DNA of 36,544 nucleotides from Planctomycetota bacterium (GTDB taxonomy: Bacteria > Planctomycetota > JAMOSO01), in assembly GCA_027063065.1 (NCBI GenBank), contig JAMOSO010000039.1, positions 1 through 36,544 of the forward strand, given 5' to 3'. The number at the start of each line of letters is the position of its first letter. The first letter of the stretch is position 1. A program made the translations under genes and the position numbers. Positions 2,504-17,515 of this stretch are shown in pieces. Under the pieces are notes generated by a model. The model ran no database searches. It saw only the letters and a program-made list of their open reading frames with translations, and was not told the DNA's origin.

Positions 2504-4624
2504 TTATACGTTACATAGGCAATGTACTGCTAGTTTTTTGATGCTGGCTTCTACTGTAGCTTGGTTGGCTTGTAGGGTTGGTTTAATGCCGTAGCTTTGT
2601 AATTTGGCTGTACAGGGCTTACCTATTGAGACGGTAATTATCTTTTTTAATAAATCAGAGCCAAACTGATTTATAAATGATGTTACGGCAGATGCACTGG
2701 CAAAAAATATAGCATCACCATTGGGTGTGTGATCATATTTTATTGGAATATTATTATATAAAATCACATCATCAACTTTATGTCCCATATTTTGTAAACC
2801 GTTACTTAAAGTCTGTGGGGCTTCAGATGAAATACATCTTAAAATATTTAAATTATTACCTGAGACTTTATTTTGAAATAATTTTAAAATACCTTCTGAA
2901 CTAAAATCATCATCTGGGCTTAAATCTGCTTGTAGACCAAGTTTGTTTAATTCGGTTTTAGTTTTTGTACCTGTTACCATAATATTTGGCAATTTACGCA
3001 AATCCAAGTTGTTGGCGACAATAATTTGTTTAAAACATCTAACTGCTGATGGCGATGTTAAGGCAATCCAATCATATTGTGTGATATTATTAAAAGATGT
3101 TGCCGCAGAAAAATTTGTTTGTAGTTTTATTAATGGGTATGCCAAAGGTACACCACCAAAGGCACGTACAACTGATTTTGCGTTTGGCATAATGGCATCA
3201 CTACAAGTTAATATAACTTTAATGCCTTTTAAAGCTCCATTTTTTGTATTATGCAAATATTGTGCCTGTGTAAATTTACCAACCATAAATAATCCCGGTT
3301 TTTTGCCATCATAATTATTTAGTTGTTCAGCAATGTTTTTAATTTTTGCATGCAAGATGTTTTCTTCTCTGGTGCCAGCAGCAAATACAACAGCTACTGA
3401 TTCTTCTGGGTTATGGCCATCGGCTAATAATTGTTGGCAAACAATTTTAATTTTTTTAATTGCCATAAAGAATACCAAAGATGATTTACTACGAATATCC
3501 TGCATAATAGATTTCGTTTCACCACCAGCAACACGTGGAGTAATAACACTAAAGCCCCTAGATACGCCACGTCTAGTTAATAACATTCCTGTTCCTGTAG
3601 TGGCTGCACTAAGACTGCTTAATCCAGGAATAACCCAATATGCCAAACCTGCATTAGATAGGGTTTCGGTTTCTTCGGGTAAGCGGGCAAAAACCCCAGG
3701 GTCTCCGCCTTTTAATCTTACTACATTAAAGCCTCGGCGAACATAATCTAAAAGCAATTGATTAATTTTGTCTTGACGTACTTGTATACCATCGGCGCGT
3801 TTGCCTACATTGATGGCTTTAGCGGTGTCTTTAAGATTTTCTAAAAGACGCGGAGCTATTAAAGCATCGTGCAAACATATATCACAATTTTGCAAGGCGT
3901 TAATGCCCTCGACAGTACATAGATTTTCATCACCAGGCCCAGAACCCATAAAACAACAAGATTTAGTATAAAAACTGCGTAATTTTATAAATCTTTGATC
4001 ACCTTTTTTAAAGGTTAAAGCAATAAAGCCTTGCCCCTCTGGTGGTGCTAATTCTTGAATGCTTAACCATTTATTAATGCGCTCTTGTAAATTTAAACGC
4101 ACTAAAGCCGCGCCTGCCATTAACAATAAATCAAAATCTCCATTATCTAGTTGCTCTATGCGTTTTTCGATTGTGCCACGTATGTTTTTGTTTTGCCATT
4201 GAGTAAAAGTAGCATCTGCCCATGCTTTGCGTCTATCAGAACTAATGCCAATCCTCGGGTTTTTAGGGATATCATCAAAACTTTGACCTTTAGGTAACAC
4301 AATTACATCCCTTGGATCGGCTTGCCATGGCAACCAAAACCAATCTAAATCATTGTGTAAAATATCTGGTAAATCTTTTGCACTATGTATGGCACAATCA
4401 ATTTCACCATTTAAAACAGCTTTATCTAACATATCAGTAAAAAAATCAGCGGGACTTTTATCTAATGTTGTGTTTAAATCCTTATCGCCTGCACTGCTAA
4501 AAGGTTTTAAATCAAAACTTAAATTGTTCAAATCTGCCTTTATAGCATTTAATGTGTTTTGAGTTTGCACCATAGATAAATTACTGCTACGGGCGCCTAC
4601 GATAAAGTGTTGTTTAAATGTCAT
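2504..4624 (-). CDS. hemC-cobA-hemD: Fused HemC (domain 3 missing) - CobA (SUMT) - HemD
   Basis: This is a three-part tetrapyrrole enzyme of 706 residues. Residues 1 to about 215 match hydroxymethylbilane synthase: the GARSS start, HSAKD at 80-84, SSDRR at 128-132, R149-G and EKRIEQL, and PPEGQGFIAL. About 221-455 is uroporphyrinogen-III C-methyltransferase (GSGPGDENL, RLKGGDPGVFAR, VIPGLSS), which makes precorrin-2. About 466-706 is uroporphyrinogen-III synthase. The HemC part stops where domain 3 should begin, so the conserved cysteine that anchors the dipyrromethane cofactor is absent. Only C223-C224, at the junction with CobA, could replace it. It is the last gene of the riboswitch operon and starts 4 bases after the cbiA stop. 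The CobA and HemD parts look complete. Whether the HemC part is active cannot be judged from sequence. Confidence 0.9.
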   Translation of the reverse strand: MTFKQHFIVGARSSNLSMVQTQNTLNAIKADLNNLSFDLKPFSSAGDKDLNTTLDKSPADFFTDMLDKAVLNGEIDCAIHSAKDLPDILHNDLDWFWLPWQADPRDVIVLPKGQSFDDIPKNPRIGISSDRRKAWADATFTQWQNKNIRGTIEKRIEQLDNGDFDLLLMAGAALVRLNLQERINKWLSIQELAPPEGQGFIALTFKKGDQRFIKLRSFYTKSCCFMGSGPGDENLCTVEGINALQNCDICLHDALIAPRLLENLKDTAKAINVGKRADGIQVRQDKINQLLLDYVRRGFNVVRLKGGDPGVFARLPEETETLSNAGLAYWVIPGLSSLSAATTGTGMLLTRRGVSRGFSVITPRVAGGETKSIMQDIRSKSSLVFFMAIKKIKIVCQQLLADGHNPEESVAVVFAAGTREENILHAKIKNIAEQLNNYDGKKPGLFMVGKFTQAQYLHNTKNGALKGIKVILTCSDAIMPNAKSVVRAFGGVPLAYPLIKLQTNFSAATSFNNITQYDWIALTSPSAVRCFKQIIVANNLDLRKLPNIMVTGTKTKTELNKLGLQADLSPDDDFSSEGILKLFQNKVSGNNLNILRCISSEAPQTLSNGLQNMGHKVDDVILYNNIPIKYDHTPNGDAIFFASASAVTSFINQFGSDLLKKIITVSIGKPCTAKLQSYGIKPTLQANQATVEASIKKLAVHCLCNV

Positions 4625-4628
4625 ATTT

Positions 4629-5999
4629 CTACCAATTATTAAAATGTTTAATGCTGTCTATTATATTGGGATTTGACAGGCAATGTATATGAATATATGA
4701 AGCTATTGTGTTGTTGATTTTATATCCACACGCATCGACTATACCTTTTGTGGGATGTGTTACGCTATAGATATTTTTTATTTTGTTTAACGCAGATGAT
4801 TCGGAATAATGAAATTCATGTCCGCGTATAATATCCCCTTTTTTACCTAAAAAACAATTTTCCATCAATGTTACTTGTCTATATCCTAAGCGTTTTAGAC
4901 GATTGTTCATTTTTGATTCTATAGGGAATATCCCGCACATATTAAATGAATTATTATTTAAAGTTGTAATGGTTTGTGATAAATACATTAATCCTCCACA
5001 TTCAGCGTATATTATGCCACCCGAAGAAGAAAAATCCTTAATACTTTTTAGCATACTATTATTTTGAGATAGCTCTTTGGCAAATATTTCTGGAAATCCA
5101 CCGCCAAAATAAAGCATATCACTTTTTGGTATATGTTTATCCATTAATGGCGAAAATTTAATTACATTAAAGCCATGCTCTTTAAATAGGTTAATATTAT
5201 CTTGATAGTAAAAACTAAAAGCTTTGTCATAGGCTATTGCAATAGTTTTGTTGTCAACAATGTTTGAGATTGTTGTGTTATTATAATGAGGCAGGTGTTT
5301 TTTGCTTAGCTGTAATAATTGTTTTAAATTGATATTTGTTTCAATTTTTTTTGCTATTAAATCATATTTTATTTGATTATCATTTTCTATTTCTGGCACT
5401 AAACCCAAATGGCGTTCAGGCAAAGTAAAGTTTTTATCACGATTTAAATAACCAATTAAAGGTGGTAATTGTTGTTGTTCTAAAACAGTTTGCAATAATG
5501 ATGCATGATAATCTGAGCCTATACCATTGGCAATAATACCAATTATGTTAATGTCTTTGTCAAAATCGCAATATCCTTTAACTAAGGCTCCAAAGGATCG
5601 TGCCATCCCTTTAGCATTGACAACTAAAACTACGCCGACATCTAATATTTTTGCGATATCAGCACTACTGCCATAATTAGATTGTACGTCTAAACCGTCA
5701 TATAGACCCATTACCCCTTCAATAATTGCAATGTCAGCGTTTTTAGAGGCATTATAAAATGATGCTTTTAGGTTTTTTTTACCCATTAGCCAAACATCAA
5801 GATTGACAGATTTTTTTTTAGCTACCTCTGTTTGAAATCCAGTATCGATATAGTCAGGTCCGCATTTAAAAGGCGCAACGACCTTGCCCATATTTTTAAA
5901 GGCTGAAATTAAACCTAAGGTTATTGTGGTTTTGCCACTACCTGAGCCGATACCAGCCACTAAAAAAGCATTAAAGTTTGTGTTGGTTTTATAGTTCAT
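4629..5999 (-). CDS. cbiA: Cobyrinate a,c-diamide synthase
   Basis: CbiA amidates the a and c side chains of cobyrinate (or its hydrogenobyrinate analogue) using ATP and glutamine. The N-terminal dethiobiotin-synthase-like domain shows the P-loop GIGSGSGKTT and the PFKCGPDYID and EGVMGLYDG signatures. The C-terminal class I glutaminase domain has FGGGFPE, the nucleophile region YAECGGLMYLS, and a late histidine in SYIHIHCLS. The length, about 456 residues, is normal. I place the start at ATG 5999, which overlaps the cbiH stop by 11 bases. A GTG at 6017 would add six residues (29-base overlap), and neither has a strong ribosome site. It sits between cbiH and the HemC-CobA-HemD gene and is the last corrin-ring tailoring step seen here. 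CbiP, CbiB and the nucleotide-loop genes are not in the window. Confidence 0.95.
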   Translation of the reverse strand: MNYKTNTNFNAFLVAGIGSGSGKTTITLGLISAFKNMGKVVAPFKCGPDYIDTGFQTEVAKKKSVNLDVWLMGKKNLKASFYNASKNADIAIIEGVMGLYDGLDVQSNYGSSADIAKILDVGVVLVVNAKGMARSFGALVKGYCDFDKDINIIGIIANGIGSDYHASLLQTVLEQQQLPPLIGYLNRDKNFTLPERHLGLVPEIENDNQIKYDLIAKKIETNINLKQLLQLSKKHLPHYNNTTISNIVDNKTIAIAYDKAFSFYYQDNINLFKEHGFNVIKFSPLMDKHIPKSDMLYFGGGFPEIFAKELSQNNSMLKSIKDFSSSGGIIYAECGGLMYLSQTITTLNNNSFNMCGIFPIESKMNNRLKRLGYRQVTLMENCFLGKKGDIIRGHEFHYSESSALNKIKNIYSVTHPTKGIVDACGYKINNTIASYIHIHCLSNPNIIDSIKHFNNW

Positions 6000-6738
6000 A
6001 TTTGGTGTGATAGCCACGATGTGTAATCATTTTGCCTTTGATAATATCAGTTTGACTATTGCCAATGATGACAGTTGTCAGCATATCAATATCTTCTAAA
6101 TTTAAATTGCATAATAAACCTACCCAAATAGTTTTATTGTCTCGTCCTGCATTTTTTACATAGCCAGCTACTATTTTTTTATTTGGATTTTTATTTAAAA
6201 AAATATCTTTAGTTTGGGCAATTAATTTATGTCGGCGTTTACTGCGTGGGTTATACAATACAGTAACCATATCCGCATTTGCTGCTGCGTTTAAACGTTT
6301 GATAATTAGTTGCTCTGGCGTTAATAAATTTGACAAGCTAATCACAGTAAAATCATTTGTTAATGGAGAACCTAATTCAGCACCTACAGACAACGCAGCA
6401 GTAATGCCTGGGATAACCTCGACATTTATGTTGTATGCTTTTTTATCAATTATTTCAAATAAAAGTGATGCCATACCATATACAGAAGAATCACCAGAAC
6501 AAACAATCGCTACGGATTTACCATTTTGAGCCTCTTCAACCGCTAAGTTTGAGCGTTCTACCTCATGCATCATACCTGTATCTATTGTTTTTTTGTTATG
6601 GCATAAATCTCTAATTAAGTCTATATACAATGTGTATCCAACCACGACTTCTGCATTATCTATTATAGCTTTAGCTTGGGGAGTTAAGTACATTGTATCA
6701 CCTGGCCCTAAGCCAACTGCGTATATTGTATTTGTCAT
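5989..6738 (-). CDS. cbiH: Cobalt-precorrin-3 C17-methyltransferase
   Basis: CbiH is the SAM-dependent enzyme that methylates C17 and contracts the ring in the anaerobic B12 pathway. The protein is 249 residues, normal for the family. It shows the tetrapyrrole methylase signatures: AVGLGPGD at the N-terminus, VVGYTLYIDLI typical of the CbiH/CobJ branch, VCSGDSSVYGMAS, VIPGITAALSVGAELG, and YNPRSKRR near the end. It starts at ATG 6738, six bases after the cbiFG stop, and its 3' end overlaps cbiA. It has no extra C-terminal iron-sulfur or nitrite-reductase-like domain of the kind fused to some CobJ/CbiH proteins. Confidence 0.95.
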   Translation of the reverse strand: MTNTIYAVGLGPGDTMYLTPQAKAIIDNAEVVVGYTLYIDLIRDLCHNKKTIDTGMMHEVERSNLAVEEAQNGKSVAIVCSGDSSVYGMASLLFEIIDKKAYNINVEVIPGITAALSVGAELGSPLTNDFTVISLSNLLTPEQLIIKRLNAAANADMVTVLYNPRSKRRHKLIAQTKDIFLNKNPNKKIVAGYVKNAGRDNKTIWVGLLCNLNLEDIDMLTTVIIGNSQTDIIKGKMITHRGYHTKYEL

Positions 6739-6744
6739 AAGTCC

Positions 6745-8583
6745 TTAAATTGCAATGGCAAGAGTTACTGTCTTGCCCTTTATTTTTGGTGTTATAATTC
6801 TATTGTTTTTTGATGCCAACATAGCCGATGCTTCAGCCACTGATGCCGTACCTATTTTACCTTTTACTTGTTTAGATGGGGTTGGAACATTGACATTATT
6901 TAAATTTTCAACTGTAAAAAACTGTGTTTTTACATTTAACTCTGTTGCTAATTTAACAATAGCCGGTTCATTTTGTTTGATATCAACACTTGCTATTGTA
7001 TCAATCATATTAATATTGCTACCAATTTCTAACAAAGCGGTGTTTAATATTTGTTTTAATTCTTGATAGTCTCCGCCAGCTTTAGCACCTATACCAATAA
7101 CTAATTTAGGTTTAATAAAATTTAATACATCTAAATCAAATATACTTTTTATTTTGTGTATATCGTCATTAGATAAATCCAAGCTAACTATGGCACTATG
7201 TTTTTGTAAATCAATATCTTGCACGCTGTTAATAAACGAGACGCATTTATTATTTGCATAAAATTTATCAAATATTTGTTTTGGCCAAATTACAGCTATG
7301 GTTTTGTCGATTATGGGTTCAATTAAAAGCATATTCAATTTTTTAATTTTAGTTTTGTCTAAAATTTGCCAGCCAAATTCTGTAGCAACACAATCAAATG
7401 CACGATGCCCTAAGACATCAGATGCAGTTGTAATTACTGGTATTGCCCCTACTATATTGGCTATTGATTTTGTTAATTCGTTGGCACCGCCAATATGTCC
7501 AGATAAAAGTGATATTGCATGCATAGCTTTATCATCTAAGCAAATAATAGCAGGATCATTTAACTTTGATTTTATTAAATTAGAGATTTTTCTAACTACT
7601 ATGCCAGTTGACATTATAAAAATATGTGCATCAAAACAATGCCATTGCTTGTCCAAGTCATTTTTTAAATTGCTAAAGATTTGTGCATCGGCAATATCAG
7701 CTATTTGATTTGCAATTTTAAAACCATTTTTTGTAATTGACCAAATTGCCAACTTGCCCTTAAACCTAAATGGAAATTCCTGTGTTTTAAAACTGTGGAT
7801 ATCTGTAATATGCCCTTCGCCTTTGCGATAGCCATGGGTAAATTTTTGATCGTATAATAATGAATCTTGACCATTGCCAGATAGAGCATTACCAACTAAG
7901 ACTATTGCTTGTCTGGTGATATTAGCCAACGCCACTTTTTGAGCAACTGTTGCTAAGGTGGCTTCAACAATTTTTTGATCTGGCCAACTTGCTCTATAAA
8001 CTACATATATTGGTGTTTGCTTTGTATATCCAGCGATTAATAAATCTGTAACCAACCCGTCAATATCACCAACACTTAAAAAAAGCCCCATAGATGTATT
8101 ATGCGATGCTAATAATTCTAAACGTTCTTTAGGCGGTACTGGTGTGCGTCCAGCACGCCTGGTAAGAATCATTGTTTGGGTAATTCCAGGTAAGGTTAAT
8201 TCTTTTTTTACTGCTGCTGCTGCTGCAAAAACAGAGCTAACTCCTGGGATAACTTCATAGTCAATACCTTGAGCATCTAAGCGCTTTATTTGCTCGGCTA
8301 TTGCACCATACATTGCTGGGTCACCAGTATGAACCCGCAAAACATTTTTGGATTCTTTAATACCTGCAATCATAATATCTATAATTTTATGTAAATCCAT
8401 TCCTGCACTATCGTATAATTGAGTATTTGGTTTATGCTCTGTAAGGATTTCTGGATTGACCAAAGAACCTGCATAGATAATTATATCGGCCTGTTTAATG
8501 GCGTTGTGTAGTCTTATAGTTACTAAATCCTTTGCACCAGGACCTGCTCCGCCAAAAATTATTTTATTTTTAAATTCATTCAT
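6745..8583 (-). CDS. cbiF-cbiG: Fused cobalt-precorrin-4 C11-methyltransferase (CbiF) and cobalt-precorrin-5A hydrolase (CbiG)
   Basis: This is a two-enzyme fusion of about 612 residues acting on consecutive steps: CbiF methylates C11, then CbiG opens the delta-lactone and releases acetaldehyde. The first 250 residues show FGGAGPGAKDL, YAGSLVNPEIL, RVHTGDPAMYGAI, VIPGVSSVFAAAA and TRRAGRTPVP, all typical of CbiF/CobM. From about 275 the CbiG part begins with LAIWSITKNG, then IFIMSTGIVVR, LLSGHIGGANEL, TTASDVLG and the C-terminal GIGAKAGG and IGTASVAEASAM. I chose ATG 8583 because it overlaps the upstream TGA as ATGA. An earlier start at 8598 would intrude into the previous gene. Known genomes usually carry these as two genes, though fusions occur. 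Confidence 0.93.
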   Translation of the reverse strand: MNEFKNKIIFGGAGPGAKDLVTIRLHNAIKQADIIIYAGSLVNPEILTEHKPNTQLYDSAGMDLHKIIDIMIAGIKESKNVLRVHTGDPAMYGAIAEQIKRLDAQGIDYEVIPGVSSVFAAAAAVKKELTLPGITQTMILTRRAGRTPVPPKERLELLASHNTSMGLFLSVGDIDGLVTDLLIAGYTKQTPIYVVYRASWPDQKIVEATLATVAQKVALANITRQAIVLVGNALSGNGQDSLLYDQKFTHGYRKGEGHITDIHSFKTQEFPFRFKGKLAIWSITKNGFKIANQIADIADAQIFSNLKNDLDKQWHCFDAHIFIMSTGIVVRKISNLIKSKLNDPAIICLDDKAMHAISLLSGHIGGANELTKSIANIVGAIPVITTASDVLGHRAFDCVATEFGWQILDKTKIKKLNMLLIEPIIDKTIAVIWPKQIFDKFYANNKCVSFINSVQDIDLQKHSAIVSLDLSNDDIHKIKSIFDLDVLNFIKPKLVIGIGAKAGGDYQELKQILNTALLEIGSNINMIDTIASVDIKQNEPAIVKLATELNVKTQFFTVENLNNVNVPTPSKQVKGKIGTASVAEASAMLASKNNRIITPKIKGKTVTLAIAI

Positions 8584-10256
8584 TTTATATCCATACAAAA
8601 TATTCTAATTGGATTATCATTTTCTAGCATAGTGCCTTTGCCTAATTTTTTTTGCCTGCGTATCTGTAATTCTAAACTTTCGCTTATTTCATTTTTAAAG
8701 TTATTTATAATTTGACAAATTGTTTCTTGCATAATTGCAGTAATAACTAAACGAGTTCCAGTGGGTAATGATTTTAAAATCCATTGAATAATTTTGATAA
8801 TATCATTGCCTCCGCCTCCAATAAAAACAGATTGCGCTTTTGGAAGATTTGGCATAGTTTTAAAAATATCACCCTCTATGGCAGTTAGATTGTTAATGCC
8901 TAAGGCTACACTGTTTTTAATTATATTTTGACAACGCTTGGCTGATTTCTCAACAGAATATACTGTAAGTTCATTGGCTATGGTACATGCTTCTAAACCA
9001 ACTGAGCCAGAACCTGCCCCTAAATCCCATAAAATAGAATGGGGTTTTAATTTTAATTTTGATAATACTACAGCTCTAATTTCTGGATGAGTTATACAGT
9101 TAGAGTCTTTGTAAAACAAATCATCGGGTAAACCTAAAGCTATTTCTTTAACTGATTGCCCTTCTTGTAAAATAAAAATAAACGTTAAATTTGCAAAAGT
9201 TTTTTGTAAAATATCACCCAAGTTTAACCTGTTTAGTGTTTCCTCTGGCAAGCCAAGATTTTGACAAATAACACATTTGCGTTGTCGATTGTTTGGGTTA
9301 TAAGCAATTAAATCTTGCGCAATTTGCCATGGATTATTAATGCTATCACATAAAATACATACTAAGGGAGAATTATTAATTTGTGCGATAGGCAGTTTTT
9401 TACTGCGTCCATGCACCGAATAATAATTTAATTCTGAATATACTAATCCTAATTTGGCTGCACCTACCTGTACAGATGTTGTATTGGGTATGTATTGCAC
9501 TTGGTCGTGTGTAAATCGTTTTGCAAGTAATGCTCCAATGCCATAAAATAATGAATCGCCAGAGGCTAAAATAACAATTTTTTTATTTGGATATTTAATA
9601 AATACTTCATCTAGTTTTTTAATAATTTCTGTATCAATATGTATTTTAATAGAAGTTAAATCATTAAAGAGATTTAGCAGTCGTTTGGCTCCAACAATTA
9701 TATCGGCATTGTAGATAGCGTTTAAATGGTGGGTAGTTAGGCTTATTTTGCCAAGTCCGCAACTGACAACTTTTATTTTTGTATTTGCTAAATTAATAAA
9801 ATCTAAGTCTAAAATATTGGCGATAATTTTTTTAATTTTGATTGCTTGCCGACAATTTTTGCCGTATGTGGATACCGATACTAAAATTTCTTTGTTGCTA
9901 AAAGTAGCTGGAAAAATACAATCGCCATTAATCCAGTTTTTATCGATATTAATTGCTAAAATATTTTTTGCTCTAGCCCAATTTAAAATATTTTGATTAA
10001 TATCTAAATAATTAGTAGCGGCTATTACTATAAAATAATCATCAATATCTGAAGCAGAAATTTCTTTGTCAATATAGATAAATTTGTCATGGTATTGTGT
10101 AAAATCAGGGTTTAATTTTGGTGCAATAACTGTTACTTGCATATTGGCTAGCAACAGTTTTTTGCATTTTTTAAAAGCTGCTTTGCCACCTCCAACTATT
10201 AAGACTTTTTTGTTATTTGCCAATAATGTCATTGGTAAAAATTGTTGTTTATTCAC
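8580..10256 (-). CDS. sirC-cbiE-cbiT: Fused precorrin-2 dehydrogenase (SirC/CysG-N type), CbiE and CbiT
   Basis: This is a three-domain protein of about 558 residues. Residues 1-160 are a Met8p/CysG-N-like NAD-dependent precorrin-2 dehydrogenase: VLIVGGGKAAFKK binds NAD, and NIDKN carries the conserved aspartate near position 105. About 161-360 is CbiE (precorrin-6B/7 C5-methyltransferase: VVSCGLGKIS, LASGDSLFYGIG, VHGRS). About 375-558 is CbiT (C15-methyltransferase and decarboxylase: THPEIRAVVLSKL, DLGAGSGSVGLEA, VFIGGGG). The start is set at GTG 10256, because GGAG lies six bases upstream and it overlaps the cbiD stop by eight bases. The open frame extends to 10289 but has no better site there. 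CbiE-CbiT fusion (CobL) is well known. The added dehydrogenase domain is less usual and couples sirohydrochlorin supply to ring methylation. Confidence 0.92.
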   Translation of the reverse strand: MNKQQFLPMTLLANNKKVLIVGGGKAAFKKCKKLLLANMQVTVIAPKLNPDFTQYHDKFIYIDKEISASDIDDYFIVIAATNYLDINQNILNWARAKNILAINIDKNWINGDCIFPATFSNKEILVSVSTYGKNCRQAIKIKKIIANILDLDFINLANTKIKVVSCGLGKISLTTHHLNAIYNADIIVGAKRLLNLFNDLTSIKIHIDTEIIKKLDEVFIKYPNKKIVILASGDSLFYGIGALLAKRFTHDQVQYIPNTTSVQVGAAKLGLVYSELNYYSVHGRSKKLPIAQINNSPLVCILCDSINNPWQIAQDLIAYNPNNRQRKCVICQNLGLPEETLNRLNLGDILQKTFANLTFIFILQEGQSVKEIALGLPDDLFYKDSNCITHPEIRAVVLSKLKLKPHSILWDLGAGSGSVGLEACTIANELTVYSVEKSAKRCQNIIKNSVALGINNLTAIEGDIFKTMPNLPKAQSVFIGGGGNDIIKIIQWILKSLPTGTRLVITAIMQETICQIINNFKNEISESLELQIRRQKKLGKGTMLENDNPIRIFCMDIK

Positions 10257-11364
10257 GCCATTCTCCGCAAAATTCTGTATTAAACCCAAATAACATTATT
10301 TTAAATTTGGTCTGATTGTTCCACTGTTTAAATACTTTTAAAGCTTTTAATGCCCAAATATTATATATTTGTTTTACGATTTCTGGCTCGCATTGCATAA
10401 TAAAACTACGGATTGTGGAGGCTTTTTGTAAGTGATTAACAATTTTTTTATCAATATTATAATCGTCTAAAATTTTAGCTATTTTTTGCATATCAGTGCG
10501 CACATTATGGGCGTGTGTATATCCATAGCCCAAAGCATATTTTGCCAATTTGCCTGGCATACAACCAATGGTGATGCTATCAATTGCATATTTTTTGGCT
10601 TGAGATATTGATTCTTGTATAAAATCTCCCATTCTGATGATTTTAATCTCTGGAAAATCTGGTTGCATTTCTTTGAGTAAACGATGAGTTTTGCCTCCTG
10701 TTACCAGCATTATTTTTTTATCATTGGTGTTAGCAGCACCTTTAATAAGCATCAGTATAGTTTTTTTATACGCGTTATGACTACATGGTATCACTATGCC
10801 AGATGTACCCAAAATAGAAATGCCTTCAACTACTCCCAATACAGAGTTTAAAGTTTTTTTAGCCAATGCTACGCCATTTTCAACGGATACTTCAATTAAA
10901 ATAGGATTAAATTTTTGCATTTTTTTAGATAAAATATCTAAGTTACGCAAAATCATTTTTTGAGGTTGAGGGTTAATTGCCACTTTACCATTTGGCACAT
11001 CTAACATATCATTAGTTACTATACCAACTCCCTGTCCTCTGCGTAAAACAATATCTATATTGTCATTGCTGATTTTTATATCACTATCAAGTAAGTTTTG
11101 ATTAAATATTGATAATTTAACTTTAATTATAGCATTATTAGTAATATCTATATCATCTCCGCCATCTTTTTTTATAGATACATCAACATCATCATTATTA
11201 ATTTTGATATCTAAAATATTTAAAAATCTAATTTGTGAATCGGGAAATTCTATCCCAATTTTTTTTAAATCATTTGCATTACAACCATATAAAACTTGAA
11301 ATGCGACTGCACTAGCAGCGCAAACACAAGCTCCTGTTGTAAATCCTGTGCGTAGATTTTTCAT
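10249..11364 (-). CDS. cbiD: Cobalt-precorrin-5B C1-methyltransferase
   Basis: CbiD transfers a methyl group to C1 in the anaerobic corrin pathway. The 371-residue protein has the family hallmarks: RTGFTTGACVCAAS at the N-terminus, KKDGGDDIDITNN near 65-78, GQGVGIVTND, an INPQPQKMI segment, ILGTSGIVIPCS and the later VTGGKTH and IGCMPGKLAKYALGYGYTHAHN region. It starts at ATG 11364, one base after the cbiC stop, and ends inside the start region of the SirC-CbiE-CbiT gene, so translation is probably coupled on both sides. Presence of CbiD and CbiG marks the cobalt-early (anaerobic) route. Confidence 0.96.
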   Translation of the reverse strand: MKNLRTGFTTGACVCAASAVAFQVLYGCNANDLKKIGIEFPDSQIRFLNILDIKINNDDVDVSIKKDGGDDIDITNNAIIKVKLSIFNQNLLDSDIKISNDNIDIVLRRGQGVGIVTNDMLDVPNGKVAINPQPQKMILRNLDILSKKMQKFNPILIEVSVENGVALAKKTLNSVLGVVEGISILGTSGIVIPCSHNAYKKTILMLIKGAANTNDKKIMLVTGGKTHRLLKEMQPDFPEIKIIRMGDFIQESISQAKKYAIDSITIGCMPGKLAKYALGYGYTHAHNVRTDMQKIAKILDDYNIDKKIVNHLQKASTIRSFIMQCEPEIVKQIYNIWALKALKVFKQWNNQTKFKIMLFGFNTEFCGEWRE

Positions 11365-11365
11365 C

Positions 11366-12022
11366 TTACAATTGCTTTAAAGTCTCTTCTAGCATACCGT
11401 GAAAAGCTGCCACAGCTAAAGGGCTACCACCACGCCTACCGTCTATTGATACATAGGCAATGTCGCTTTCATAGAGCATTTGTTTTGACTCTATAACATG
11501 TACAAAGCCCACAGGCATACCGATAATTATTCGTGGTTTTAACAATCCTTCAGAACTCATTTTAACAATACCTGCCAATGCTAATGGTGCATTGCCAATT
11601 AATATAATACCATCATCTATGTCGTCTTTTGCTACGTCTAAAGCTGCAAGAGAACGTGCTATGTTTTTTTCTTTGGCAATTTTTGCAACCCGTTTGTCGG
11701 CAACTAGACAAGTAATATCTTTGGTTTTATAAATAGGATTAATTTTAGAAATTTTTGCTTTTGAAATCCCACTTTTAATCATATTAGAATCACTATAAAT
11801 AGAACATCCATCCTTTAAAGCCTGTAAAACAGTATCTATTGGATTATGTGCAAACCTAAATAATTCACCAATTGATAAATCCGCAGTTGAGTGAATTACC
11901 CTCCTTACTACTGGCCATTCTTTTGTGTTAAATTTTTTACCAGTGTATTCTTGCTCGATACATTTAAAACTTTTTTGTTCTATTTGTATTCCTGGCATAT
12001 CCCAATTTATTTGCGTATTCAT
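11366..12022 (-). CDS. cbiC: Cobalt-precorrin-8 methylmutase
   Basis: CbiC moves the methyl group from C11 to C12, giving cobyrinate. The protein has 218 residues, normal for CbiC/CobH. The conserved catalytic histidine is in VVRRVIHSTAD near residue 44. Other family signatures are SIYSDSNMIKSGI, IGNAPLALAGI, IGMPVGFVHVIESK and the C-terminal DGRRGGSPLAVAAFHG. The start ATG overlaps the stop of the upstream membrane protein gene as ATGA, with AAAGGTGG just upstream as ribosome site. It is followed one base later by cbiD. Confidence 0.96.
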   Translation of the reverse strand: MNTQINWDMPGIQIEQKSFKCIEQEYTGKKFNTKEWPVVRRVIHSTADLSIGELFRFAHNPIDTVLQALKDGCSIYSDSNMIKSGISKAKISKINPIYKTKDITCLVADKRVAKIAKEKNIARSLAALDVAKDDIDDGIILIGNAPLALAGIVKMSSEGLLKPRIIIGMPVGFVHVIESKQMLYESDIAYVSIDGRRGGSPLAVAAFHGMLEETLKQL

Positions 12023-12951
12023 ACAGCCACCTTTAGAGTTATTAATATCGCTATTATAGCTACTATAATTTTTATAATTTGTGAAATTGTAACAATATAT
12101 AAACCTGTCTTTCCAGGAAATATCCCCAATGCCGATGGCAGAGTATGTCTTATGGCTCTGACAGGAGTTGTAAATATATAACCAACTAAAAGCGTTATAA
12201 AAACTTGTGTTTGGCTTAGTACCCCATCGCGTAACGCCAATGATGCTGCCGATACAGCTGGCATTATTCCAGAAAAATGCACACCTATTATAACCATTGA
12301 TTCTGGACGTAATATAGATTTTAAATTATCGGGTAAGATTGATGTTGTTAATGCCAAATAACCGTTAATATTTAAAAAATAAATAATGCTATAAAGAGGA
12401 ACAGTAATAATTAAAACACGCAATAAAATAGTTTTATTGCGTTTAAAAAAAACTTGCCAAAGTGTTTTGTGTTTTTTATTTGTAGGTGTTAATTTAATAT
12501 CTTTATTTATATCACAAACACTACTATTTTTGTTTAATATTAATAATGCCAATATAGTAGTAATAAATGCGCCTATTATTTGCACGCCAATATAAGCTAA
12601 ACCGACTTTGCCCAACAATGGTAAAAGCACAAAACTTGATACTCGTAAATGCACAAAAACGGCGGCCGTTGAATTGGCTAATGCGGATAAAATCATTTCT
12701 CGCTTAGATATTAGCCCTTCATCACAACTGCTAGCTAAAATGGTATTGGCAGCTCTAGGTGAAGCAAATGCCGTTACAAAAGCAGTACAACCTAAAGACG
12801 AAAGACCCGTAAATTTGGACAAAGGTTTTAAAATAAAAGCTAAACGATTTTGTAGGTTTATGCGTTCAAAAATCGTGCCAATAAATACACCAATAGAAAT
12901 CATCAAGGCCAATTTAAAAAGGCTAATTAGCAATGTGATTACATCTGACAT
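12019..12951 (-). CDS. Nucleoside-recognition (Gate)-domain-like membrane protein within the B12 operon
   Basis: This is an integral membrane protein of 310 residues with roughly seven or eight hydrophobic segments and two similar halves. The first has TAFASPRAANTILASS after a KPLSKFTGLSSLG loop. The second has VHFSGIMPAVSAASLALRDGVL followed by VGYIFTTPVRAIRHTLPSALGIF. Paired segments of this kind recall the nucleoside-recognition (Gate/YjiH-SpmA-like) fold, whose members are transporters of mostly unknown substrate. It lies between cbiL and cbiC with a 3-base gap and an ATGA overlap, so it is cotranscribed with corrin synthesis. Import of cobalt or corrinoids, or export of an intermediate, is my inference from context. 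No cobalt-transport signature (CbiM or NikM type) is visible. Confidence 0.6.
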   Translation of the reverse strand: MSDVITLLISLFKLALMISIGVFIGTIFERINLQNRLAFILKPLSKFTGLSSLGCTAFVTAFASPRAANTILASSCDEGLISKREMILSALANSTAAVFVHLRVSSFVLLPLLGKVGLAYIGVQIIGAFITTILALLILNKNSSVCDINKDIKLTPTNKKHKTLWQVFFKRNKTILLRVLIITVPLYSIIYFLNINGYLALTTSILPDNLKSILRPESMVIIGVHFSGIMPAVSAASLALRDGVLSQTQVFITLLVGYIFTTPVRAIRHTLPSALGIFPGKTGLYIVTISQIIKIIVAIIAILITLKVAV

Positions 12952-12954
12952 TTT

Positions 12955-13662
12955 TTATTTTTTGCGTCCTATTAAATGTGATAAATATTCTACAGATGTC
13001 TTTTTTATTTCGTCTAATGAGTTACTAATTTTTTCATCTTCTAGACCAACTCTTTGAGCATATAATAAATTATTTTTTCCACTGTTTTGTAAAATATCAA
13101 TAATGGCATTGCGTGTTCTATATGTTTTTAAACATACTACGGTGTCCGCTTTTTTTACTAAGTCTAAATTAACAATTTCTTCCTTCCACGCGGGTAGTAG
13201 CATAAGTGTTTCTTCGTCTTCAACTATGGGCATATTTTTACGTGATGCGCTATACTGAAATGAAGTAATCCCTGGAATTGTTTCAACTTTAATATCCGCA
13301 ATAATATTTAATACTTCTTTCATTAAATAAGTGTAAGTGCTATAGATTAAAGGGTCGCCTATAGTTACAAAGGCAACATCTTTACCATCTTTAAGCTTGT
13401 CGCAAACTAATAAGGCATTTTTGACCCATGCTTCTTTTCGTTGGCTATGTGAACGCGACATTGAAAATACCAGAGGTATCTTAATTGCTGTTATGCCTTC
13501 TATGGCACTAACTATTTTAGACGATATGCTCTCTTTGCTATTTTTACCAACGGCTTCAAAAATATAATCCACCTTTTTAAGTACATCTACAGCTTTTAAT
13601 GTCAACATAGATGGGTCGCCTGGACCCACACCTACACCTATAAATTTGCCATATTTAGTCAT
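12955..13662 (-). CDS. cbiL: Cobalt-precorrin-2 C20-methyltransferase
   Basis: CbiL methylates C20 of cobalt-factor II or cobalt-precorrin-2, the first methylation after cobalt insertion. The 235-residue protein has the tetrapyrrole methylase pattern: GVGVGPGDPSMLTLKA at the start, then IKIPLVFSMSRSHSQRKEAW (CbiL/CobI type), FVTIGDPLIYSTYTYLM, ETIPGITSFQYSAS, a LMLLPAW segment, and DTVVCLKTYRTR. Its ATG shares one base with the btuF stop (TAATG). In this operon it follows the chelatase and the ABC transporter, as I recall for the periplasmic cbiK locus of Desulfovibrio. Confidence 0.95.
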   Translation of the reverse strand: MTKYGKFIGVGVGPGDPSMLTLKAVDVLKKVDYIFEAVGKNSKESISSKIVSAIEGITAIKIPLVFSMSRSHSQRKEAWVKNALLVCDKLKDGKDVAFVTIGDPLIYSTYTYLMKEVLNIIADIKVETIPGITSFQYSASRKNMPIVEDEETLMLLPAWKEEIVNLDLVKKADTVVCLKTYRTRNAIIDILQNSGKNNLLYAQRVGLEDEKISNSLDEIKKTSVEYLSHLIGRKK

Positions 13663-14516
13663 TATTTCTCGTTTTTATTATAAATTAAATTGTAAATTTT
13701 TAATGCGGCTTTTGCCACATTAATGCCTGGTCTCGATACAAGTTTTTCATTGATAATGCCAAAATTGCCACGTTGTACGCATGGTAAAAAAGCTATTAAA
13801 CTTTCTTTGTCTGGACTTTTTGGATGGCGATTCATCATACCTCGTTGTTGTAAGTAAAAGTCTGGATTTGCCTTTATAATAGCTTCTATATCAATGCGAT
13901 TGACACTTTTATTTCCAGCGACTACTATTTTAGCTCCTGCGTAATGGATAATATCAGCTACTATACTATTTTTGCCACAGGTTAAAAAAGTAGGCGCTTG
14001 GCGAACTTCAACAAAAACTGTTTTTTTTTGTTTTAATTTTGTAACTAAATCATTTAATTTTGCCAAATCTGTATTAATATTCTTAACTATTTTTTTAGCC
14101 GATTGATAGCAATTGGTTTTATTTCCCAAGGTTAAAATTAAATCCTGTACTTCTTTAATGTTTGTGGGCGCAACAATTAAAAACTGAATATTTAATTTGG
14201 TTAAATACTGATTTAATTTTTCAAACCGTGAATGATTTTTAGCAAAAGCTATTACAAAATCTGGTTGACAGGATATTACAGCTTCTATAGATGGATTCAT
14301 ATGATTGCCTACAGAAATTACTCCAAGTTTTTTAGCCTCTCTACTTGTTGTGCCAACTATTGAGTCTTCAGCTCCGATAGCTATTAACATCTCAGTATAT
14401 GCAGAATATAAAGACACGATACGAGGCTTTTTATGGTTGTCTGCAAAAGCAACAGCATTGCTAAGCAAGCAAAGAATGCTCATATAAATAACGGTATATC
14501 TTTGGTGTTTTAACAT
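13662..14516 (-). CDS. btuF: Periplasmic corrinoid or metal-chelate binding protein, BtuF type
   Basis: This is a substrate-binding protein of an ABC importer (class III, one rigid helix between two lobes). It has 284 residues, with an N-terminal hydrophobic signal sequence ending near AVAFA-D at about residue 25. Motifs are KPRIVSLYSAYTEMLIAIGAEDSIVGTT, SIEAVISCQPDFVIAF, and FVEVRQAPTFLTCGKNSIVADIIHYAGAK, the last typical of BtuF/FepB-like proteins. The ATG overlaps the btuD stop by one base. B12 or cobinamide uptake is the simplest reading given the riboswitch. Uptake of iron-siderophore or heme cannot be excluded, since the families are close. Confidence 0.85.
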   Translation of the reverse strand: MLKHQRYTVIYMSILCLLSNAVAFADNHKKPRIVSLYSAYTEMLIAIGAEDSIVGTTSREAKKLGVISVGNHMNPSIEAVISCQPDFVIAFAKNHSRFEKLNQYLTKLNIQFLIVAPTNIKEVQDLILTLGNKTNCYQSAKKIVKNINTDLAKLNDLVTKLKQKKTVFVEVRQAPTFLTCGKNSIVADIIHYAGAKIVVAGNKSVNRIDIEAIIKANPDFYLQQRGMMNRHPKSPDKESLIAFLPCVQRGNFGIINEKLVSRPGINVAKAALKIYNLIYNKNEK

Positions 14517-15277
14517 TACAATCTCACATTAATTGTTTTAGACACTTGATTAAATTCAATGTCTTTTAAATCAATATTATAAAATTTACTTATTAGCTTT
14601 GGTTTAATTGCTTTATCAATAGATAATGTGTCAGATTGGTCGCCACCATTTAAATACATAATCTTATCGCTAAATCTGATTGCTAAATTAATATCGTGTA
14701 TAATAGCTATTATTGTTACATTTTTATCTTTGGCTAATGATTTTACTGCACGCAAAATCGTTGCAGTATGATTAATATCTAAATTAGATGTTGCTTCATC
14801 AAATAGTAATATGGGTGTATCTTGTATTATTGCTCTGGCTACAAAAACTAATTGTTTTTCTCCACCGCTTAATTCATTAATATAACGGTTTTTAAGATAT
14901 GCAATTCCTATTTTATCAATAGCATGGTCGATAAGTTTGTTTTGTGTTGCTTTGCTTAAAAATTTAGATTTTGCATATAAGCCCATAGCTATTGTTTCTT
15001 GAACAGTAAATGGAAATAGCGTCTCTAATTTTTGAGGTACTAAAGCCATAAGGCAGGCTATATCTTGATTGGACATCTTAGATATGTTGGTTTCATTAAT
15101 TAAAACGCTACCTGTTTTAGGCATTAAGATATTGTTAAGACATTTTAAAAGAGTTGTTTTGCCACCACCGTTAGGTCCTAATATCGTTAATATTTCTCCA
15201 GCTTTTAAATTAAAGCTAATATTTTGTATCACATTTTTAGTATTATATGCGTAACTGATATTATTAACTTTAATCAT
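14516..15277 (-). CDS. btuD: ABC transporter ATPase, BtuD/FecE family
   Basis: This is the ATP-binding subunit of the importer encoded with btuC and btuF. It has 253 residues with Walker A GPNGGGKTTLL near 34-44, a Q-loop in LMALVPQKLETLFPFTVQ, the ABC signature ELSGGEKQLVFVARAI, Walker B TPILLFDEATSNLDI and the switch histidine in IIAIIHDINLA. It fits the FecCD/BtuCD-associated ATPase group rather than sugar or amino-acid importers. The start ATG overlaps the btuC stop by four bases. A short C-terminal tail after the switch region is normal for the group. Confidence 0.9.
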   Translation of the reverse strand: MIKVNNISYAYNTKNVIQNISFNLKAGEILTILGPNGGGKTTLLKCLNNILMPKTGSVLINETNISKMSNQDIACLMALVPQKLETLFPFTVQETIAMGLYAKSKFLSKATQNKLIDHAIDKIGIAYLKNRYINELSGGEKQLVFVARAIIQDTPILLFDEATSNLDINHTATILRAVKSLAKDKNVTIIAIIHDINLAIRFSDKIMYLNGGDQSDTLSIDKAIKPKLISKFYNIDLKDIEFNQVSKTINVRL

Positions 15278-16290
15278 CTTAATTTACGCATTAATAAAAT
15301 ACAAAAAAAAGGTCCACCTATTAAAGAGGTAATCACCCCTACTGGTATTTCTCCAGCAAACGATAAGGCCCTTACTAAAATATCTGCCCATAATAATATT
15401 AGACCGCCAAAAAAAAATGATAGAGGCAATACTACTTTATGGGTAGCTCCAAATACCGAGCGTATAATATGTGGTGCAACCAAGCCTACAAAACCAATGA
15501 TACCGCTTACAGCTACAGATGTTGCAGATAACAAAGCAGAAGAAATTATTAAAATATATCTTGTTCTTTTGACATTAACGCCTAATGCCGAGGCTTGTTC
15601 ACTGCCAAATGCCAATAAATCTAATTCTTTAATGTGCAATAAAATTAATGCAGTTCCAAGTATAAAATAAGGACTTAGTATCAGCACTTCTGTCCAGCTT
15701 CGACCAGAAAAGCTACCCAATAACCAAAATATTAAAGCGCCTAAAGAATCGCCAGAAATACTTTTAATTAAGCTTAATCCAGCAGATAATATAGCCCCAA
15801 CCACAATACCAGATAAAATTAAATTGCGAGGTTCAAAGCCACCACTTTTGGCACTTAATATCATAACTGCTAACAATGTTATAATTGCTCCAATAATGGC
15901 AAATAATGGTAAAAAATACCCCCCTAGGCCTAATAAAATAGCAACAGATGCACCAAATGCCGAGCCAGATGCAATACCTGTAGTATAAGAGTCCGCCAAT
16001 GGATTAATTAATAATCCTTGAAATACTGCTCCAGAAATACCAAGTGATGCCCCTACCATAAATGCCAATAACATTCTTGGTAAGCGTATTTGATAAAATA
16101 CCAAATGGGCAGTTGGATTAGAGTTGTTATTAAAAAGTGTAAAAACACTGTCATACGAAATATTTGCGATACCTGTAGTTAACCCTACAGGTATCGCAAA
16201 TACTGCCAATAAAATTAAAATGACAATAAAAATTTTTGACACAATTTTTTGTATAATATTAAAATTTAATATTATAATCTTTAATAGCAT
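15274..16290 (-). CDS. btuC: ABC transporter permease, BtuC/FecCD family
   Basis: This is the membrane subunit of a B12 or siderophore-type importer, about 338 residues with some ten hydrophobic helices. FecCD-family signatures include RLPRMLLAFMVGASLGISGAVFQGLLINPLADSYTTGIASGSAFG, LSGIVVGAILSA, LLGSFSGRSW, ALGVNVKRTR and GFVGLVAPHIIRSVFG, ending in GEIPVGVITSLIGGPFF. I place the start at ATG 16290, with AGG just before it. A GTG lies three bases earlier. Either start overlaps the cbiK end by about 32-35 bases, a long overlap, so a slightly later start is possible. It pairs with the ATPase and binding protein downstream. Confidence 0.92.
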   Translation of the reverse strand: MLLKIIILNFNIIQKIVSKIFIVILILLAVFAIPVGLTTGIANISYDSVFTLFNNNSNPTAHLVFYQIRLPRMLLAFMVGASLGISGAVFQGLLINPLADSYTTGIASGSAFGASVAILLGLGGYFLPLFAIIGAIITLLAVMILSAKSGGFEPRNLILSGIVVGAILSAGLSLIKSISGDSLGALIFWLLGSFSGRSWTEVLILSPYFILGTALILLHIKELDLLAFGSEQASALGVNVKRTRYILIISSALLSATSVAVSGIIGFVGLVAPHIIRSVFGATHKVVLPLSFFFGGLILLWADILVRALSFAGEIPVGVITSLIGGPFFCILLMRKLR

Positions 16291-17218
16291 CACCTATATG
16301 TTGTACATATATCTTGACCCATTCAGGATTCATACCTAAGCCAATCACTTCAGTATCAACATTGATACCCGCTTTGGTAAAAATACTTTTCCATGAATCC
16401 TCTTCTTCGCTAGCCATATCATTATTGGCATGATCTCCTGCAACTACCATAAATGGCTTAAGTAATATTTTTTTTACTTTAGCCTTTTGCAGACCGTCTA
16501 AAACATCATTAACAGTTGGAAACCCTTCTACAGTGCCTACAAAAATATTTGGATAATTATATTCCTTACGCAGTGCTTTTTGAAATTCTGCATAAATACC
16601 TGTGCTTAAAAACTCATTACCATGTCCCATATAAACTAATGCAACGCCATCTGCTTTAGCTTTTGTTACATCGTTTTTAAGTGCTTTAACTCCTGTTAAA
16701 ATATCATCATGATAAATATGTTCTGTACCAGGTTTGCCAAGGGCTGGACGGCCTATTACTAAGTTGTCAAAAGGCATAAATTTCTTTTTACCTGTTTTAA
16801 TAGAATTTAATCCATTTACATAAGAGCATAAGTCTTCATATTCTTCACCAGCAAATATATGGCTTGATTGTACAATAATTGTACGGTAACCATCATTTTG
16901 CAAATTGGCGATGGTTGCCAAAGGAGTTTTAACATTATAAATATTAGCAGGAACGGTTGGATTTTCTTTTTTGTATTGTGTATCTAAAGCTCTTCTTTGC
17001 CAAATTTTTCTAATGATATTAGATGTAAAGGCCAGTTCTACTTTTGCATTTGGATATGCTTTTTGGGCAGCTAATTTAATGTTTAGAATTGATTGCAATG
17101 CTGTTGGGTATGTAGTTCCAAAAGCAGCTATTACTATAGCTTTTTTATTCATTGATTCTTTTCCTTGTACAGAACAAACAGCTAAAATCATACATAATAA
17201 AATAGATATTTTCTTCAT
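16259..17218 (-). CDS. cbiK: Exported sirohydrochlorin cobaltochelatase
   Basis: CbiK inserts cobalt into sirohydrochlorin, the committed step of the anaerobic B12 route. The mature part matches the CbiK family: IVIAAFGTTYPTAL, VQSSHIFAGEEYEDL, the metal/acid-base histidine in YMGHGNEF (about residue 199) and the second in VVAGDHANNDMASEE (about residue 263). The N-terminus is a basic, hydrophobic signal sequence (MKKISILLCMILAVCSVQG), as in the periplasmic CbiK of Desulfovibrio. The start is ATG 17218, with AGGA seven bases upstream. The open frame reaches 17245, but those residues precede the ribosome site. It is the first gene after the riboswitch and terminator. A periplasmic location is odd for a pathway whose other enzymes are cytoplasmic. 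Confidence 0.93.
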   Translation of the reverse strand: MKKISILLCMILAVCSVQGKESMNKKAIVIAAFGTTYPTALQSILNIKLAAQKAYPNAKVELAFTSNIIRKIWQRRALDTQYKKENPTVPANIYNVKTPLATIANLQNDGYRTIIVQSSHIFAGEEYEDLCSYVNGLNSIKTGKKKFMPFDNLVIGRPALGKPGTEHIYHDDILTGVKALKNDVTKAKADGVALVYMGHGNEFLSTGIYAEFQKALRKEYNYPNIFVGTVEGFPTVNDVLDGLQKAKVKKILLKPFMVVAGDHANNDMASEEEDSWKSIFTKAGINVDTEVIGLGMNPEWVKIYVQHIGDAIKDYNIKF

Positions 17219-17283
17219 TTTTTTCCTAATAATTAATAATAACAATAGATAGATTTTTTTTTTTGAATACTTGATAAAATAAA

Positions 17284-17312: not shown

Positions 17313-17365
17313 AAGTATTCAATAGCTCACCTGTCTGCCTCTATATTTGCGTAAGAGTCAGTACA

Positions 17366-17452
17366 TTTGAGATTCGTCTCCTGGCTTACAACTTTAGTTG
17401 CTTACAGTGGCGCATCCGCATTCGATTTTCACGAATTTCCGTTAATCTCAAA
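17366..17452 (-). promoter_or_regulatory. Cobalamin riboswitch aptamer
   Basis: Read on the minus strand, the segment has a closing P1 helix (17452-17444 with 17375-17366, TTTGAGATT and GAATCTCAAA). It also has the conserved GGAA and GTGAAAATC core, GCGCCACTGTAAG (GCCACTG core at 17411-17405) and the B12-box-like AAGCCAGGAGAC (around 17387-17376). Spacing and order match the adenosylcobalamin-type aptamer. It sits 150-230 bases upstream of cbiK, with the intrinsic terminator between, and so should shut off the whole biosynthesis operon when cobalamin is plentiful. Confidence 0.92.
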
Positions 17453-17515
17453 TAATTTAACTTTAATTTAACACTAATTAAAATTTATGTAAATATAATA
17501 CTTTTGGTTGTATAA

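Follow-up and report, generated by a model that had tools for sequence, protein, structure and literature searches.

Hydroxymethylbilane synthase (HemC; EC 2.5.1.61) is described in the family literature as a three-domain fold common to all of its enzymes, with an invariant dipyrromethane cofactor and an invariant cysteine that holds it (PMC3949521). Standard enzymes add four units onto this cofactor, after which hydroxymethylbilane (HMB) is hydrolysed off (PMC7242693). The stretch of DNA analysed here (the window, 36,544 nucleotides from a Planctomycetota bacterium) encodes a HemC that lacks the cofactor-carrying third domain and is fused to CobA and HemD in a single chain. Can such a protein still form HMB and, if so, on what is the chain built? 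The protein is probably a member of a separate clade of two-domain HMB synthases that have no cofactor domain, and the only such synthase of its genome.

Domain structure of the fusion protein

The fusion gene (2504..4624, minus strand, as for all window features given below) is an open reading frame (ORF) with an ATG start that encodes 706 residues. Pfam places Porphobil_deam at residues 8–212, TP_methylase at 225–431 and HEM4 at 486–695, with no match anywhere in the protein to Porphobil_deamC (PF03900), which represents domain 3. The HemC part (residues 1–221, 3962..4624) scores 166.3 bits against a threshold of 22.1 with PF01379, the model for domains 1 and 2. It aligns with only positions 2–210 of the 293 in the NCBIfam hemC model (TIGR00212) and ends at approximately E. 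coli residue 217, where the final helix of domain 1 stops. The cofactor cysteine (E. coli C242) and R232 are absent together with domain 3. Retained are the catalytic Asp84 (4373..4375, equivalent to E. coli D84), Lys83 and the cleft arginines; residue roles and domain limits follow PMC3945110, with E. coli numbering taken from the MG1655 sequence.

The uroporphyrinogen-III C-methyltransferase domain, CobA (residues 222–455, 3260..3961), begins directly after HemC and passes TIGR01469 with 203.4 bits against a cut-off of 185. It is followed by the uroporphyrinogen-III synthase domain, HemD (residues 466–700, 2525..3229), which passes the HEM4 gathering score (123.5 vs. 27.5 bits). An earlier sequence-only reading of this DNA had described a HemC that keeps its catalytic Arg and Asp residues, loses domain 3 with its cysteine, and runs straight into CobA with C223-C224 (3953..3958) at the junction. 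All of this is borne out, as is its view that the protein departs from the norm of the family.

Comparison with canonical HemC (PDB 1PDA and 4MLQ) shows that domains 1 and 2 are homologous along their length (E 3e-31 for 4MLQ) and share the catalytic Asp and Arg residues. The domain-3-less proteins differ in having neither domain 3 nor the cofactor cysteine, in carrying D or N at position 60 and in not requiring R131. The window copy further differs in its fusion to CobA-HemD.

A clade of HemC proteins without domain 3

A simple explanation would be an assembly error or a recent deletion in the window genome alone, which is a draft of 71 contigs that is 90.5% complete. However, the same HemC(1-2)-CobA-HemD architecture is present in L002, L035, L072, L073, L074 and others. 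L002 is 42% identical to the window protein over residues 7–701, likewise misses domain 3, and lies in a genome without PF03900. Altogether, 17 domain-3-less HemC proteins were collected from 17 genomes, the window included, by scanning genome contigs, relatives of the L002 genome, low-scoring genomes of the window's phylum, and all loci for domains. As the truncation recurs in 16 other genomes and its members form a clean clade, it is neither chance nor a local assembly error, and the window copy has not merely been deleted. The explanation is hardly credible overall, and for the truncation it is refuted.

Members of the clade occur in varied architectures. CobA and a HemD-like domain follow HemC in the same chain in the window, L002, L035, L038, L039, L040, L072, L073 and L074, although the HEM4 match of L039 is partial and the C-terminal part of L040, which is partly masked, was judged by eye. 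L078, L079 and L088 are fused behind SirC-HemA (L078 by Pfam, L079 and L088 by similarity). In L100 (1378-3021, plus strand) the short HemC is joined directly to HemD without CobA, and the CobA of that genome lies on another contig (L075). L037, L045, L051 and L108 are standalone proteins of ~220 residues. The distribution spans at least two phyla, since the window genome is outside the phylum of genome G392. A search of the class and family of the window genome returned only that genome itself. No fusion was found in the viral contigs searched, and the few near-full matches among plasmids were all in two pieces, interpreted as HemC and CobA encoded by separate genes. As a side observation, L002 (4018-6399, plus strand) carries two in-frame 'KHSPF(Y/C)KGG' inserts, one each in its HemC and HemD parts, as if the gene had twice taken up a dispersed repeat.

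In a maximum-likelihood tree of domains 1 and 2, a single branch separates the 17 domain-3-less proteins from 21 full-length enzymes, with support of 100/98 and recovery in all bootstrap trees. As the tree is unrooted, either form may be ancestral, and the domain-3-less clade may keep a form that predates the acquisition of domain 3.

The active site is conserved across this branch. Residues were compared between the 17 domain-3-less proteins and 46 full-length HemC proteins; because these sequences are related, the counts do not represent independent events. The two classes share 18 invariant positions, among them R11, S81, K83, D84, S129, R132, R149, R155, R176 and Q198. Other positions distinguish the classes. 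Position 60 in the active-site flap, which lies within the D60-F-F-T motif of the window protein (4436..4447), is D or N in 17/17 domain-3-less proteins vs. G, A or S in 46/46 full-length enzymes, giving the clade its signature. Position 67 is D in 16/17 of the former and E in 40/46 of the latter, while T154, K158 and the hinge at 195–197 are altered in the domain-3-less clade. R131, which binds the cofactor, is lost in 7/17 domain-3-less proteins vs. 0/46 full-length enzymes. In E. coli, both R131L and R132L impair cofactor binding (PMC3945110). Judged on sequence, the pattern is that of a remodelled cleft and not of decay.

Activity and the fate of the cofactor

The window genome has a single PF01379 match, that of the fusion gene itself. 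No second HemC and no separate domain 3 was detected in this genome with PF01379 and PF03900, the latter repeated at E≤1, in agreement with the absence of PF03900 matches at that level from all seven genomes tested (7/7, the window genome among them). HemB is present and intact, and porphobilinogen (PBG) is presumably made in this organism. A true uroporphyrinogen decarboxylase, HemE, is also encoded (355.7 bits; cut-off 303). The presence of HemB and true HemE means that a working HMB synthase is needed and, with only one HemC available, that the fusion protein must serve heme too. It is therefore most likely the only HMB synthase of its genome, supplying heme as well as B12, and the branch dedicated to B12 that had been proposed earlier is not supported by this gene content.

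Is the HemC part itself the enzyme? It could be a catalytically dead scaffold, with HMB supplied by an unrelated enzyme, and the missing domain is indeed the site of the cofactor that the literature calls invariant (PMC3949521). However, the catalytic residues are invariant and no other HemC was found. The HemC part also appears to be under purifying selection, with a dN/dS of 0.30 vs. 0.20 for the fused SirC-HemA part in one close pair. Members additionally lie in pathway operons with HemA, HemB and HemL. In genome G424 the gene order is HemA, short HemC, CobA-HemD, HemB, HemL, and in G409 a SirC-like gene, HemA, short HemC, CobA, HemB, HemL; by eye, G309 and G417 resemble these two. A dead scaffold is hence very improbable, and the inactive HemC considered in the sequence-only reading is not favoured. 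The window protein is instead very probably an active HMB synthase, judging from its conservation and genomic setting.

In an active enzyme, another protein in trans or the fused CobA or HemD domains could stand in for domain 3, either binding the cofactor or closing the cleft. As this would predict, most members are joined to CobA-HemD or encoded next to it. The partners nonetheless vary between CobA-HemD, SirC-HemA and HemD alone, and some members are standalone, so there is no constant partner in the chain. With PF03900 also absent from the seven genomes, a replacement is improbable, including the supply of domain 3 by another protein that had been suggested at first.

Alternatively, the cofactor may have been kept but moved. 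C223-C224 was the first candidate for a new anchor and is rejected, as the pair is confined to the window copy. The corresponding junction is VT in L002 and L035 and has no cysteine in L038–L040, and L037 ends before it. Within domains 1 and 2 each subgroup could instead anchor dipyrromethane on its own cysteine. C77 is common to the window protein, L002, L035 and L045, and C172 to L037–L040 and L051. Position 172 furthermore adjoins A170 and G173, which are invariant in full-length enzymes and changed in the domain-3-less clade. This is set against the scattered cysteines of L072, L073, L074, L100 and the L078 group, and against the loss of R131 in some members. The clade as a whole has no cysteine column in common, which excludes a single conserved thioether site. 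An anchor relocated to differing subgroup sites is unlikely, but it is the least unlikely of these alternatives.

The preferred reading is that the window protein works without any covalent cofactor, for which the odds are even or slightly better. The chances are evenly balanced that the entire clade forms its linear tetrapyrrole without covalently bound dipyrromethane, against the supposed universality of a self-made, cysteine-linked primer. The growing chain would be held by the arginine-lined cleft instead of through a thioether bond with a conserved cysteine, and D84 would perform the chemistry with no conserved protein-linked primer. In the absence of a bound cofactor, free dipyrromethane or PBG must act as the primer, and the chain may accordingly start from PBG itself or from non-covalent dipyrromethane. 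The direct product might also differ, with aminomethylbilane as a candidate. It would then be handed to HemD and on to CobA within one chain; channelling to HemD is conjecture based on the fusion, which would suit an unstable product.

Several points weigh against a cofactor-free enzyme. The clade retains R132, which the E. coli enzyme needs to bind its cofactor, and the subgroup cysteines C77 and C172 could serve as local anchors. The residue counts come from related sequences, as noted above. An AlphaFold model of the window and L002 proteins had a mean pLDDT of 41 and a pTM of 0.24 and was not used for the cleft. It is also possible that a second HemC was overlooked in the draft genome, though the relatives would need the same oversight.

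Operon context, known relatives and significance

The fusion gene comes last in a long cobalamin operon, headed by a cobalamin riboswitch (17354..17465) that lies in the operon leader, ~13 kb upstream. The riboswitch scores 38.8 bits with RF00174 against a gathering score of 31.5; it was found by a focused scan only, a fast Rfam scan of the whole window at gathering having returned nothing. This agrees with the earlier placement of the gene in a B12-riboswitch operon. The remaining operon (within 4629..17245) encodes CbiK, a FecCD-type permease, an ABC ATPase, a binding protein, a CbiL-like methyltransferase and a membrane protein, together with CbiC, CbiD, SirC-CbiE-CbiT, CbiF-CbiG, a CbiH-like protein and CbiA. 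The cbi genes and CbiK were annotated by Pfam, and the transport genes and the CbiL and CbiH calls by eye.

Further observations concern the neighbouring genes. The CbiK cobalt chelatase (PF06180; 16259-17245) is the first gene after the riboswitch and its N-terminus resembles a signal peptide, suggesting that it is possibly periplasmic. Between CbiC and the CbiL-like gene lies a 310-residue membrane protein (12019-12951) without a Pfam match, a candidate transporter. Two more pathway fusions are present in the operon, SirC-CbiE-CbiT (8580-10289) and a CbiF-like TP-methylase with CbiG (6745-8598). Beyond the fusion gene, an ORF at 754-2370 resembles the N-terminal region of HsdR, a type I restriction subunit, and is possibly broken. 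Elsewhere in the genome, near HemE, L136 (16014-16658, minus strand) encodes a nitroreductase-family protein that by eye is BluB-like and would make the lower ligand of B12.

CobA-HemD and other tetrapyrrole fusions likewise join consecutive pathway enzymes in one chain. L041 and L061 have a full-length HemC beside a CobA-HemD gene, where HemC keeps domain 3 and remains a separate ORF. A close known relative of the short form is a 241-position NCBIfam model named 'hydroxymethylbilane synthase' (NF002202, PRK01066), which we take to represent chlamydial HemC. Domain-3-less members match nearly the whole length of this short model and score near or above their own full-length hemC score. L038 reaches 172 bits vs. 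160 with the full-length model, compared with 135 vs. 342 for the full-length L041. All tested members fall below the NF002202 cut-off of 251 bits, the window protein scoring 138.6. The existence of this model means that short HemC proteins are not unknown to annotators; a search of the accessible literature found no relevant paper on domain-3-less or chlamydial HemC.

The domain-3-less clade makes an old question testable, namely what the enzyme really gains from domain 3 and the cofactor, and its standalone members are convenient minimal enzymes for testing the role of domain 3. Fused members may pass the unstable bilane directly to HemD. If the clade is active without domain 3, priming and the setting of chain length would be possible in another way.
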